Both the position numbers and the translations under genes were made by a program. The notes below the pieces were generated by a model that did no database searches, was not told the origin of the DNA, and worked only from the letters and a program-made list of their open reading frames with translations. From positions 1,674,001 to 1,738,000 of the forward strand of contig NZ_CP025624.1 of the NCBI RefSeq assembly GCF_002874965.1: 64,000 nucleotides of DNA, in the 5' to 3' direction. The DNA is from Pseudomonas sp. NC02 (GTDB taxonomy: Bacteria; Pseudomonadota; Gammaproteobacteria; Pseudomonadales; Pseudomonadaceae). Shown in pieces: positions 11,895 to 20,537 of this stretch (its first letter is position 1; each line of letters opens with the position of its first letter).

Positions 11895-12102
11895 GCTTCA
11901 CTCCATGAAAAGCGAGGAGCAGTAACGGGAAATATCAGGCAAATGCCCGATCTAGACGTGTGCAAGCATACCGGCGATGGTTCGCAGATGAGGCCCGTTC
12001 GTCGATTGGCGTAATAAAGGGGTGTATCAGGGGGTAGTGCGGGCTCTAGTCCTAGCGCCTTGAAAGGCAAAGCGCATAGGGACCAGGTGTAATGCGCGAG
12101 TC

Positions 12103-12282
12103 TTACTTTTTACCCAGGGTGATCTGCTTGGACGGGCCGAAAGTCTGGCCGCTTACGCCTTTGGCAATCTGCTGGATTTCGCCGCCCTGCTTGAGGAATG
12201 CAGCAATTTGGCTGTTGATCGATTCGCTGGTTTCAACGGCGGGAGCTGGCTTTGCTTTGCTGTTGGATGCTTTTACGCGCAT
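12103..12282 (-). CDS. 59-residue conserved Pseudomonas protein
   Basis: Begins MRVKASNSKAKPAPAVET from ATG 12282 and ends in SGQTFGPSKQITLGKK. A disordered, Lys/Pro/Ala-rich N-terminus precedes one amphipathic helix (INSQIAAFLKQGGEIQQIAK). No membrane segment. The basic ends suggest nucleic-acid binding, and relatives are sometimes named transcriptional regulators, but no role can be shown. A start at 12318 is possible but has no ribosome site. Confidence 0.62.
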   Translation of the reverse strand: MRVKASNSKAKPAPAVETSESINSQIAAFLKQGGEIQQIAKGVSGQTFGPSKQITLGKK

Positions 12283-12605
12283 GGCGGCCACTAACCTGTA
12301 GAAAATTAACTTGGCCATGCATCGTACATGAAATGCTTGACAATTGCTTGGCAAATATCCCCCTGAAATATACTTAGGGTTTATGAATCGCCTGGATTAT
12401 TAAGTGAAATACTCACCTAACTTGCTGTTTTAACTCGAATCCCTCGAGGAAATCCGGCCGTGGGTACTGGCCGGATTCAGCCCGATGACCTGACGAGCGG
12501 GGCGCTTCTCGGCAAACCCATGATTTTTCAGGCCTGTACGCCGGTACGCGGGACCGCCGTCGTCAACTCGGGTAGAATGCCGCCCACGCAATGAGGGTAT
12601 TTGAG
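12283..12605. other. 323-bp intergenic region between divergent genes
   Basis: Divergent promoter region for the 59-residue gene and cvfB. TTGACA at 12337-12342 is visible but has no well-spaced -10; TAGAAT at 12573-12578 is a plausible -10 for cvfB. No open frame of coding character and no clear RNA structure. Confidence 0.5.
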
Positions 12606-13442
12606 ATGGCTTTAGTCGGGCGCTACAACAGCTTGCAAGTGGTTAAACACACTAACTTTGGTTTGTACCTGGATGGTGATCAAGAGGGCGAAATCCTCTT
12701 GCCCAACCGATATATCCCCAAAGATATTCCCAGTGAAGATGAAGACTGGCTCAACGTTTTCATTTATCTGGACAGCGATGACAAACTTATCGCGACCACC
12801 GAAAAACCAAAAGTACAGGTGGGTGAATTTGCCAGTCTGAAAGTGGTTGAAGTCAACAGTATCGGTGTATTCCTCGATTGGGGCCTGCCCAAGGATCTGC
12901 TGCTGCCTTACTCCGAAGAAAAGCGCCAGCTGACCGCCGGTGAGTATTGCGTGGTACACGTCTACCTCGACAAACACACCAAGCGCATCACCGCCACCGC
13001 ACGCCTTGACCGCTACCTGGACAAGACCCCGGCCACCTACAAGGTCGGCCAGGAAGTTGACTTGCTGGTGGCCGAAGCCACCGACATGGGCTTCAAGGCC
13101 ATTATCAACAACAAGCACTGGGGCCTGATCCACAAGAACGAAGTGTTCAAGTTCCTGCGCCCGGGCAAGGAAGAGAAAGGCTTCATCAAGGAAATCCGCG
13201 CCGACGGCAATATCAGCCTGAGCCTGCAGCCTGTGGGTGAAGAAGCGGCCTCCAGCCTGAACTCGAAGATCCTCGCCAAGTTGCGCGACAACAACGGCAC
13301 CTTGCCGGTCAGCGATAAAAGCGACCCGGCACTGATCAGCAGTTTGTTCGGTGTCAGCAAAGGCAACTTCAAGAAGGCCATCGGCGCCCTCTACAAGCAG
13401 GGTCAGATTGTGATCCACGCGGATCGCATTGAACTAAGCTGA
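12606..13442 (+). CDS. CvfB-family S1 RNA-binding protein
   Basis: 278 residues from ATG 12606 (GAGGG upstream). Three S1-like OB domains can be followed (YNSLQVVKHTNFGLYLDG; LKVVEVNSIGVFLDWG; VDLLVAEATDMGFKAIINN) and a C-terminal winged helix (SLFGVSKGNFKKAIGALYKQ). This is the layout of CvfB/YitL, an RNA-binding regulator first described in Staphylococcus. It probably acts after transcription. DUF2177 gene follows after 53 bp. Confidence 0.87.
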   Translation: MALVGRYNSLQVVKHTNFGLYLDGDQEGEILLPNRYIPKDIPSEDEDWLNVFIYLDSDDKLIATTEKPKVQVGEFASLKVVEVNSIGVFLDWGLPKDLLLPYSEEKRQLTAGEYCVVHVYLDKHTKRITATARLDRYLDKTPATYKVGQEVDLLVAEATDMGFKAIINNKHWGLIHKNEVFKFLRPGKEEKGFIKEIRADGNISLSLQPVGEEAASSLNSKILAKLRDNNGTLPVSDKSDPALISSLFGVSKGNFKKAIGALYKQGQIVIHADRIELS

Positions 13443-17812: not shown

Positions 17813-17935
17813 ATGAAAGAGAAACTGCAAAACTGGCTGCACGACCTCGGCGTCGCACTCGGCTTGATCGAGCCACCGCTGCAACCGGTGCCAATCCGCA
17901 CCGATGACGAGCAGCGTCGCCCGCGTCGCAGGTAA
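17813..17935 (+). CDS. PA1414-family small protein
   Basis: 40 residues: MKEKLQNWLHDLGVALGLIE then a Pro/Arg-rich tail ending RRPRRR. ATG 17813 follows AAGGGGG. An amphipathic N-terminal helix and a basic tail are all that can be seen. I recall PAO1 PA1414 as a very abundant oxygen-limitation transcript of the same form; position beside the gbu cluster (PA1418-PA1422) fits. No convincing Anr box was found upstream. Function unknown. Confidence 0.72.
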   Translation: MKEKLQNWLHDLGVALGLIEPPLQPVPIRTDDEQRRPRRR

Positions 17936-18376
17936 GTCCTGGAAAGCGCTCAAGCATGTTTGTTTGGGCGCGGCCAGGTGGTTTGCCTATGTATTGGAGT
18001 CATGATTGATCATGACCCGTTGCTGTGTACTTCAATTCTTCGTCTGGCTTTGGCCGGACGTTTTCATTTCCGGGGTTTGGTGATTTTCTCAAGACACCTG
18101 CTTTCGGAATAATCCTTCAATTATTTAATTTAACAATGCCACGGTAATACCGATTGGTAGTCCGGACGTGTGCGCGTCAGTCGAGTTTTGCCATTAAGTA
18201 TCGGAATTGGACTACCTGTTTGTCAGAGTCGACGGGCTTATTTGATTAATAGGATAGGCGTAGGTTGAGTTTCATCACGAAAAGATTTGTAGCGTTTGCA
18301 GTTCTTGCAAGCCCCCAACTTCATTGAGTTGCGCTCTCCGGAGTAGGAGCCAGTCAGAACTGTTGGAGACAAAACC
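17936..18376. other. 441-bp AT-rich intergenic region
   Basis: Contains a terminator (18041-18067) and then about 300 bp of unusually AT-rich DNA (e.g. around 18120-18135) leading to the fusion oxidoreductase. GGTAGTCC (18156-18163) and GGACTACC (18209-18216) form a perfect 8-bp inverted repeat 45 bp apart. No open frame. Confidence 0.6.
18041..18067 (+). terminator. Rho-independent terminator downstream of the PA1414-family gene
   Basis: CGTCTGGC and GCCGGACG (one T-G pair) enclose TTTG, followed by TTTTCATTT. It is about 105 bases past the stop codon. Confidence 0.7.
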
Positions 18377-20476
18377 ATGATGTTCTCTTCCGTTCCGCCA
18401 GTCGCCGCGTCACTTATTGCCACCACCGAAAACATCTTGCATATCGCCCGTGCATCGCGTGGCTGGAAAGCTGATGCACCCGGCAACGTGGTGTTTTTCC
18501 CGCCGACGTTAACCAAGCAGGCTCTGCTTATACAGATTGCACTGCTGCGCCCATCAACGCTCGTTGTCGCAGACCAGGTTATTGATGCCGACGTCATCAA
18601 CCAATGGCGTATATCCCACCCATTTGGCGAACTCTATTTGGTCCGCAGAGGTACAAGTCTGGATAAGATCCGATTGGATCTGTGCGAGCGCAACAATGTT
18701 CGAGTGATTAACACGCCAGGGGTCAATGCGCCGCATGTTGCTGCCTATATTGCGCACTGGCTGACGCTGGCCGATGGCTCCTTGCCCCATGACATCTGTG
18801 TACTGGGATACGGCAATGTAGGGAAAGAGCTTGTTAAGTTGTTGCTTGCTCGAGATCCGGATGTTCGGATTAAGGTGTTGGATCGACGCGATCGAGTGTC
18901 GGACAGTTTCGGGAAAGCCTCTTCCGATTGTAGGGTTTCATTGGTTGACGACTGGCTTGAGGCGCTCGAGGGGGCCAATGCAGTCGCCCTATGCTTATCC
19001 CTGAATGATGAATCCATTTATCGCATTGATCGGACCCTCATTCAGTGCCTGCACAGAAAGGCTCGCCTTGTCTGTGTCGCCAAGCCGGATGTCTTTAGCG
19101 ACGATGCGTTGCAGACCCTGGCAGTCTCCGAAGATATCCAGCTCATATTGGACTACGGCCCCAGGACACTGGATGCGTTTCGGGTGCACACACAAGCGCT
19201 CGGCTGCAGTGTCTCCACATGGTACAAGCCGGCGACGCTGACCACACAGGCGGCCACCACCGAAGCCTGCCATTGCGACCTCGACTATGTGGTCTCGGTG
19301 CAACTGAGCTTGATGGCCTTGCGCGGCCTTGTCCGGCGCAAACTCGCACACTCTTTGGCGATCCCCTCTCGGCAAGCCGATGCCGGTGCGCCGCGTGTGT
19401 CGATCATCGGCAGAGGTATCAACGGGCTGCTCCAAGCCGTGATGTTCCGCCTGGCAAATTATCAGGTCACGGTTTACGGAGGAAATCAGCAGCGCGATGG
19501 TGCCAGTCACAAGCAGGTGAACATGCGTCATCTGTCGGCAACGGAGACGACTGCAAAACCGCTGCCTAACGATTACCTGACTCCCGCAAATCAGTACCTG
19601 GCCATTGAGTGCAATCGCGCAGGCATCGAGCTGTTTGAAAAATTCCTGGCCGACAACCCATCGCTGGCACGATTTGCACGGTCGCGAATTGTACGAGCCT
19701 ATGTGGACGACTCCAGTGGCACGGAGGCCGCGATCCGCGAGCAACGGGATATCGAAAACAGGCCTTGGCCGAGTGGCAAGCCGGGGCGAGAGCTTGCAGA
19801 GATCAGTCAGCTGCAATTTCAGGCAATGTATGGAGTTCCCGAGGTCGGGCGGGCGATTGAGGTGTCGGGCTACGATCTGGAATTTATCCATTTAATGGAT
19901 GAGATGGTGACGCTTTTGCAGCGCTCAGGGGTTGAGTTCCTGCCACGGCACCTGAGTCCGGTCCAAATTGCCGATCTGAGTAGAGAGCACTTTGTCGTCA
20001 CGGCCATGGGGGTGGACGAACCAGAGGTCATCCCGATCATTGGCTGGTTTTTCAAGCTGCGCGCCGTTGATGATGAAGGTGTCGACATGCGCGGACTCAA
20101 GCTGCAGTACGACCGGCCAATCGGCGTCATGAATTGCCGCCTGGACGGGAACTGCATCCTTGTCTCCGCCGGGCAGGTGCCGCCCGATTCGACGCCGCAG
20201 TACAAGGAACAGATACGGGCGGCGTGCCTGGCTGCCGTTTCTCGACACTTTCCAAAGTCCTGCAGCCGCGCAATCGAACGTGGCGACTTGCAACAAATCG
20301 AATGTGTCAGGCCCGGCACCGCAGATGGACTTTCAATCGTGCATTGGTCCGCCTACAACCGCATTGTCGCGGGGGCAACTTATGCCGGGGGCACCACGCA
20401 GGGATTGGTATGGGCGTCTTTGGTCCAGGAAGTCATCCAGGCCAGAGCGCCGGCGGTTTCGGCAATGTGGGAATAA
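18377..20476 (+). CDS. fusion: 2-hydroxyacid-dehydrogenase-like NAD domain + DAO-type FAD oxidoreductase
   Basis: 699 residues; ATG 18377 with TTGGAG eight bases upstream. Residues about 50-290 follow the D-2-hydroxyacid dehydrogenase plan: VRVINTPGVNAPHVA, nucleotide loop LGYGNVGKEL (GYGNVG 144-149), VALCLSLNDESIYRID. The catalytic Arg of the usual NTARG motif is replaced (VAKPD, Lys236) and no HxxW histidine is seen. Residues about 339-690 are a DAO/DadA-like flavoprotein: dinucleotide loop IIGRGINGLL (345-350), C-terminal RPGTADGL (645) and ATYAGGTTQG (667). Each half is the usual length of a free domain, so this is a true fusion. GC is lower than in neighbours. Monocistronic. Substrate unknown. 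Confidence 0.72.
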   Translation: MMFSSVPPVAASLIATTENILHIARASRGWKADAPGNVVFFPPTLTKQALLIQIALLRPSTLVVADQVIDADVINQWRISHPFGELYLVRRGTSLDKIRLDLCERNNVRVINTPGVNAPHVAAYIAHWLTLADGSLPHDICVLGYGNVGKELVKLLLARDPDVRIKVLDRRDRVSDSFGKASSDCRVSLVDDWLEALEGANAVALCLSLNDESIYRIDRTLIQCLHRKARLVCVAKPDVFSDDALQTLAVSEDIQLILDYGPRTLDAFRVHTQALGCSVSTWYKPATLTTQAATTEACHCDLDYVVSVQLSLMALRGLVRRKLAHSLAIPSRQADAGAPRVSIIGRGINGLLQAVMFRLANYQVTVYGGNQQRDGASHKQVNMRHLSATETTAKPLPNDYLTPANQYLAIECNRAGIELFEKFLADNPSLARFARSRIVRAYVDDSSGTEAAIREQRDIENRPWPSGKPGRELAEISQLQFQAMYGVPEVGRAIEVSGYDLEFIHLMDEMVTLLQRSGVEFLPRHLSPVQIADLSREHFVVTAMGVDEPEVIPIIGWFFKLRAVDDEGVDMRGLKLQYDRPIGVMNCRLDGNCILVSAGQVPPDSTPQYKEQIRAACLAAVSRHFPKSCSRAIERGDLQQIECVRPGTADGLSIVHWSAYNRIVAGATYAGGTTQGLVWASLVQEVIQARAPAVSAMWE

Positions 20477-20510
20477 AAAAAACGGGTGCGACATCCGACG
20501 TCGCACCCGC
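20475..20510 (-). terminator. terminator of the gbu-linked transporter operon
   Basis: CGGGTGCGAC (20483-20492) pairs with GTCGCACCCG (20500-20509). The A-run 20475-20482 is a T-run on the minus strand, so it ends the operon whose last gene stops at 20538. The TAA of the fusion gene lies inside the A-run. Confidence 0.88.
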
Positions 20511-20537
20511 TGAAGAAAGCTTCTTTCAACTGTTTTT

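Follow-up and report, generated by a model that had tools for sequence, protein, structure and literature searches.

The gene at positions 18377..20476 (+ strand) of a 64,000-nucleotide stretch of Pseudomonas sp. NC02 (contig NZ_CP025624.1, positions 1,674,001 to 1,738,000; hereafter the window) encodes a 699-residue protein in which two enzyme folds are joined on one chain. The gene is complete, with both halves and the stop, as judged from the list of open reading frames (ORFs) and from its relatives. We propose, with a probability of about 0.38, that the full protein unites an amine oxidase with an imine (or keto) reductase on one chain, the short form found at the same locus in related bacteria being the reductase part alone; every chemical step of this proposal is one that we infer. 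We offer more tentatively, as a somewhat unlikely whole, a wider scenario: a single chain would combine amine oxidation dependent on flavin adenine dinucleotide (FAD) with NADPH-dependent imine reduction as a self-contained inverter or exchanger, loss of a discontinuous substrate domain at the same locus would have left reductase-only proteins in several Pseudomonas lineages, and the two forms would be alternative alleles exchanging segments between lineages.

Two folds in one reading frame

The N-terminal NAD(P) half (residues 1-330; 18377..19366) has the 2-hydroxyacid dehydrogenase (2HADH) fold and the C-terminal FAD half (residues about 334-699; 19376..20473) a DAO or glycine-oxidase-like fold; these and all features below lie on the + strand unless stated otherwise. 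An initial inspection of the letters and their translations (the sequence-only reading) had described a single 699-codon frame with a GYGNVG dinucleotide loop at residues 144-149 (18806..18823) and a GRGING FAD loop at residues 345-350 (19409..19426), and the translation bears this out. Pfam assigns DAO (PF01266) to residues 341-681 with 42.5 bits (cut-off 27.9) and 2-Hacid_dh_C to residues 140-255 with 28.6 bits (cut-off 25.1), while 2-Hacid_dh scores 20.3 bits, under its cut-off of 24.6; a scan of the protein against NCBIfam returned no model at or above cut-off. The fold and the NAD-binding profile (PF02826) of the 2HADH family are both found in the NAD half, and the FAD-binding and substrate-binding domain folds of the DAO family are both present in the full protein. 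The structure prediction that the sequence-only reading had proposed as a check yielded a confident two-fold model (AlphaFold2, 22-sequence alignment), with a mean predicted local distance difference test score (pLDDT) of 91.5 and a predicted template modeling score (pTM) of 0.89, the latter suggesting that the two halves are held in a fixed arrangement.

A database search for the two-domain architecture, also proposed at that stage, found 114 relatives of the fusion protein. Sixty-nine of them are long (at least 630 residues) and at least 70% identical, all named ones coming from Pseudomonas. Ten more distant fusions share 39-49% identity (two named, Variovorax and Ramlibacter), three share 26-28% (one named, Solwaraspora), and six Frankia loci share 26-29%, one of which was scanned with Pfam and carries both domains. 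The architecture had been singled out as unusual, a view upheld by this family search and by searches with each half separately. With the NAD half as query there were 38 matches, and with the FAD half 46, many of them forms already known. Seven new ones were read: three NAD halves that turn unrelated and then stop near residue 275-320 (P0116, P0117, P0118), three short-type copies that start late in the NAD half (P0121-P0123), and an FAD half whose end has turned unrelated (P0128). No complete free-standing relative of either half occurs among the matches read, in a search that needs shared exact 5-residue words and that distant single-domain relatives may escape.

Within the genus, 23 of 398 Pseudomonas genomes carry the gene, with one match each: 13 full, 8 short and 2 broken. 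The eight short copies have an open frame from the normal start, and seven of them reach the usual end. A phylum-wide sample of 398 genomes, queried with the Variovorax protein, gave two matches, both from Pseudomonas, including that of the window itself. A viral origin was also considered and rejected: 17 stretches in viral contigs matched the patterns, and none codes for a relative.

A rebuilt NAD(P) pocket

The NAD half shares with D-3-phosphoglycerate dehydrogenase and other D-2-hydroxyacid dehydrogenases the fold, the G-x-G-x-x-G loop and the R-x-G and N-x-x-x-V-A segments. It differs from them in that the catalytic Arg is replaced by Lys (Glu in 6/6 Frankia loci), the His is not conserved and an oxidase is attached. 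The Arg motif of the 2HADH family is replaced by VAKPD (residues 234-238; 19076..19090), which contains Lys236-Pro237, and Lys236 occupies the Arg site in 68 of the 69 long relatives. The catalytic-His site, which we placed by motif reading at position 291, falls in LTTQ..C..DLD (residues 288-303; 19238..19285) and holds Gln in 58/69 and His in 5/69 long relatives. Both losses had been noticed in the sequence-only reading and hold in most long relatives; the classical catalytic Arg and His of the 2HADH family are lacking.

Instead, another group of residues shows little or no variation across Pseudomonas and Burkholderiales, its chief motifs extending to Frankia. R90, R91, G92 and S94 of the RRGTS signature (residues 90-94; 18644..18658) are invariant in alignment A1, as are C298, D301 and D303. 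Across nine loci (six Frankia, Ramlibacter and two Pseudomonas), RRGTS, [VI][AS][KE]P, C-x-x-[DE]-[LM]-D and C-x-R-P are found in 9/9, and R-x-LS-x-TET, from the FAD half, in 7/9. To judge from this conservation, the pocket is not just degraded: it is rebuilt with new conserved residues. Given the loop and the fold, the N-terminal half likely binds NAD(P)H, more likely NADPH: beta-2 ends at residues 169-170 with R170 and no conserved acid, an NADP-like arrangement.

The FAD half

The best fold matches of the FAD half are CmiS2, iminodiacetate oxidase, and glycine and sarcosine oxidases, with D-arginine dehydrogenase ranking lower; matched structures of this glycine/sarcosine type include PDB 6j38, 6pxs and 4ysh, MSOX and NikD. 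The DAO-type FAD domain that the sequence-only reading recognized stands, while its label of DadA-like seems too specific. Compared with the CmiS2 type, the fusion adds the 2HADH-fold half and a loop of its own, RHLSATET (residues 384-391; 19526..19549), a signature of the FAD half that is deleted or altered in most short forms; it also carries Cys643 where CmiS2 has Gly. Cys643 is invariant in alignments A1 and A4 and, to judge by its motif, may correspond to the flavin-carrying cysteine of MSOX, which belongs with NikD and FsqB to the covalent-FAD sarcosine-oxidase type. MnmC also contains a DAO fold in a chain of similar length, its first half being a methyltransferase, not a 2HADH fold; its matches over about 700 columns have a root mean square deviation of about 20.

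At the end of FAD beta-2, residue 368 (19478-19480) is Gly in 69/69 long Pseudomonas-type forms, and Asp in P0113 and in the four Frankia rows aligned. As a separate observation, 8/28 short forms have Glu at this position, the canonical type, unlike the long forms.

Loss of the oxidase substrate domain

In the Pseudomonas fluorescens group, the same locus occurs as full (about 700 residues) and short (495-589 residues) forms. We compared these in an alignment from which P0002, P0074, P0076, P0088, P0099, P0100, P0104 and P0106-P0115 were omitted; P0069, an N-truncated long form, is treated as short in the 29-row residue count and excluded from the 28-row counts. Two stretches are lost: residues about 436-495 (19682..19861), the first part of the substrate domain, missing in 27/28 short relatives, and residues about 548-649 (20018..20323), its second part, which holds C643 and is missing in 28/28. 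P0072 (589 residues) has the second deletion only and may be an intermediate. A loop around residues 373-402 is also reduced in 19/28 short proteins. In the DAO topology, for which FsqB serves as a guide, the substrate domain is built from two separate sequence segments. Since the lost stretches correspond to these segments, as judged from predicted secondary structure and this topology, what has been removed is the discontinuous substrate domain, and an FAD-type Rossmann core is left. In a structure model of a short form, the NAD half is predicted with confidence and the rest of the chain is Rossmann-like. Within that rest, G345 and G347 are kept in 29/29 short rows and G350 in 27/29, R384 in 10/29 and H385 in 12/29, and the DAO profile falls below cut-off or is absent in 5/5 short forms tested.

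Selection on full and short forms

The coding sequences analyzed comprise 25 full and 10 short forms. They exclude broken, out-of-frame or unclear ORFs (L011, L033, L040, L045, L065; L033 is a full form whose start is out of frame), duplicates (L012-L020, L052, L053), non-Pseudomonas loci (L038, L046-L051) and seven identical sequences; L063, which has lost its C-terminal end, was further excluded from the FAD-part tree and from the codon-model analysis. Codon models in IQ-TREE gave an omega for the NAD half of 0.231 for nine short forms (bootstrap 5-95% range 0.198-0.270), against a median of 0.230 (0.209-0.244) for 40 random sets of nine full forms, and for the FAD segments common to both an omega of 0.286 (0.226-0.365) in short versus 0.185 (0.155-0.206) in full forms; these sets take in inner branches possibly older than the deletions, which pulls the short values toward the full ones. 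In L008-L064, the sole short-short sister pair with DNA, the NAD half has an omega of 0.21 and the FAD part one of 0.50. At the protein level, the ratio of FAD to NAD divergence ranges from 0.21 to 2.88 among 17 close short pairs; 13 of these lie above 1.18, which marks the 95% point for full pairs (991 pairs with a median of 0.95), and the four short pairs of the P0081-P0087 group deviate in the opposite direction.

The NAD half is under purifying selection that is undiminished by loss of the oxidase substrate domain. Its equal constraint without that domain points to a role that needs no oxidase site on the same chain, and hence to a separate function for the NAD half; a catalytic nature does not follow from constraint.

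History of the short state

In the tree built from the NAD half, the ten short forms require nine changes of state, at least seven of them forced by well-supported branches, and the short label is no more clustered than shuffled labels (357/500 as low). A single origin of the short form as one clade is rejected by the approximately unbiased test (p-AU 1.5e-58, with the bootstrap not settled). Six short forms pair with a full form on well-supported (starred) branches, each full partner being different (L009-L035, L039-L025, L061-L031, L044-L037, L041-L005, L010-L006). For the remaining FAD part, nine short forms show seven changes, three of them forced, and one clade is rejected more weakly (p-AU 0.009). 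The deletion junctions differ among most lineages, one being common to L039, L008 and L064, and two pairs whose flanks are about 90% or more identical share just 61-78% identity in the piece between the deletions. From the junctions and the divergent middle piece, repeated deletion and recombinational exchange of an older short segment both seem likely. Record names, taken as recorded, would place both forms within P. lurida and within P. cedrina.

Proposed function and alternatives

In the reaction that we propose, the FAD half would remove two hydrogens from a small amine to give an imine, as its glycine/sarcosine-oxidase fold and conserved residues suggest; the amine would most likely be an alpha-amino acid or an N-substituted glycine. 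With NAD(P)H, the N-terminal half would then reduce the imine, its presumed substrate, or the keto acid derived from it, in a pocket formed by R90, R91, S94, N117, H120, Lys236, D259, C298, D301 and D303. Overall, the two steps would invert the stereochemistry of the amine or exchange its substituent, the unstable imine not being released. In the short forms the reductase would sit on a reduced FAD-type Rossmann domain and be fed by some other oxidase. We favor imine reduction because the only 2HADH-fold precedent known to us that is paired with an amine oxidase carries it out, and because the lost Arg and His argue against ordinary keto-acid reduction. That precedent is Bsp5 (PDB 6p2i), an acyclic imino acid reductase of 2HADH fold which, reportedly (Guo and colleagues, in 2019), works with a partner oxidase. 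By analogy, this is the nearest documented chemistry known to us. The likeness is one of fold, in which Bsp5 ties with many 2HADHs, and the one pointer to an NADPH preference of the fusion is positions 169-170. Bsp5 is a protein separate from its partner oxidase, which is not known to be of DAO fold, whereas the fusion would hold both activities on one chain.

Several observations weigh against this proposal. Bsp5 is only one of many similar fold matches for the NAD half. Some pocket residues have changed in short forms (K236 in 3/28, D259 in 2/28, N117 in 3/29), and catalysis by the NAD half may therefore not extend to every one of them. An acidic residue is the usual feature of the DAO family at the end of FAD beta-2, and since Gly368 replaces it in the long forms, binding of FAD is not certain. 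Furthermore, no neighbor or partner gene is constant across genera in the loci examined, so that the surroundings give no pointer to a substrate: the gene lies next to a convergent symporter gene in the fluorescens group, and the genes nearby are glutathione-synthesis-like in Ramlibacter and of carotenoid type in Frankia. Even so, we rank the fused imine reductase above the two readings initially put forward, a non-catalytic sensor half and a channeled hydroxyacid-producing enzyme, each of which keeps some probability.

The alternative that survives best, though we think it unlikely, is that the NAD half is a non-catalytic, CtBP-like domain that senses a ligand or the redox state and controls or scaffolds the oxidase, the short forms then being lone sensors or binding proteins. 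The loss of the classical Arg and His would fit such a domain, CtBP proteins are among the profile matches, and the equal constraint with or without the oxidase substrate domain is equally expected for it. However, the loop and many polar pocket residues are near-invariant in Pseudomonas and Burkholderiales, with the main motifs retained in Frankia, which exceeds what a mere binding site usually needs, and no partner or target gene is constant.

A less probable reading takes the short forms as functionless oxidase copies that decay because selection on them is relaxed. The 398 genomes hold ten non-full copies, of which two are wrecked or out of frame and a third ends early; copies stopping inside the NAD half exist (P0117, P0118), the leftover FAD part evolves faster in short forms and a few conserved pocket residues have changed. 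Yet in seven of the ten, despite two or more large deletions, the frame stays open all the way from the normal start into the usual C-terminal region; the NAD-half omega of 0.23 matches that of full forms, and the short-short pair gives 0.21.

Slightly below this we place a channeled amine-to-hydroxyacid enzyme, in which the imine made by the FAD half would be hydrolyzed to a keto acid and then turned into a D-2-hydroxyacid by the NAD half. The joining of a 2HADH fold to an amine-oxidase fold speaks for it; the Arg and His with which 2HADHs handle keto acids are nevertheless replaced in nearly all members seen, and a two-site channel gives no reason for retaining the NAD half in chains that lack the oxidase substrate domain. 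Finally, a merger of two adjacent genes by sequencing or assembly error, one of the outcomes by which the sequence-only reading would have fallen, is rejected: the same domain order recurs, from many sources, in the 69 long relatives, the ten at 39-49% identity and the six Frankia loci, and nothing was found in favor of an artifact.

Genomic context

The gene is present in one copy in its own genome. Upstream of it lie a LysR-type gene and an ORF of 40 residues (17813-17935), and downstream a convergent sodium:solute-symporter-like gene (names read from the sequences). With the downstream gene convergent and the small ORF ending 441 bases before the fusion gene, no operon logic is seen at the window locus. 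The small ORF, which we take to be PA1414 of P. aeruginosa, is conserved beside this site in many Pseudomonas, whether or not they carry the fusion; the PA1414 locus carries an oxygen-responsive small RNA. A scan against Rfam gave a single match, far under the family threshold. A terminator-like hairpin at 18041..18060, between the small ORF and the fusion gene, is a weak candidate, the region holding 4 such sites against 3.2 expected. Another, on the strand of the convergent symporter gene (20481..20511, - strand), starts 5 bases past the stop of the fusion gene.

Among 24 Pseudomonas loci from the named collection, the gene adjoins the symporter gene in 21, and in 20 of these the LysR gene lies on the other side, the DNA of L040 ending before the LysR position. 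The remaining three (L022, L024, L026) are at other sites. In 26 relatives with the symporter and without the gene beside it, the distance from the small ORF or LysR gene to the symporter is 82-637 bases in 15 and 932-1386 in 11. These loci with and without the gene support acquisition in general, as had been suspected, and their pattern fits a gain at the symporter site followed by mostly vertical descent. The lower G+C content first adduced as a sign of acquisition is real (0.569 for the gene, 0.608 for the window); the difference is modest, however, and the window has a second low stretch at about 12000-13000.

Other sites have neighbors of their own. In both L022 and L024, the downstream gene encodes the binding protein of an amino-acid ABC transporter, accompanied in L022 by the remaining transporter genes; the upstream gene is M28-peptidase-like in L022 and Lrp-like in L024 (names again read from the sequences). 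In Frankia, Pfam places a BTAD/NB-ARC regulator upstream of the fusion (scanned in L051) and, downstream, GNAT and Caroten_synth genes (L049) or a glycosyltransferase and an amine-oxidase-type FAD enzyme (L047), together resembling a carotenoid cluster.

Novelty and implications

Both folds were already known; what appears new, within the literature searched, is their fusion, the remodeling of the pocket and the existence of a natural series that lacks the substrate domain. The sequence-only reading knew of no described enzyme of this shape, and in keeping with this no family name was found, nor any published description of these three features in the titles and abstract starts on which the literature was judged, most subscription papers being outside reach.

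Acyclic imines are unstable in water, and to our knowledge few enzymes can catch them. If our proposal is true, imine-making and possible imine-reducing sites on one protein would amount to a natural one-pot catalyst for amine inversion or exchange. Whatever the chemistry, the locus is a natural experiment, in which related bacteria carry the gene with and without the oxidase substrate domain while its other half is equally constrained. A comparison of full and short forms of the same gene thus offers a direct test of what the NAD half does.
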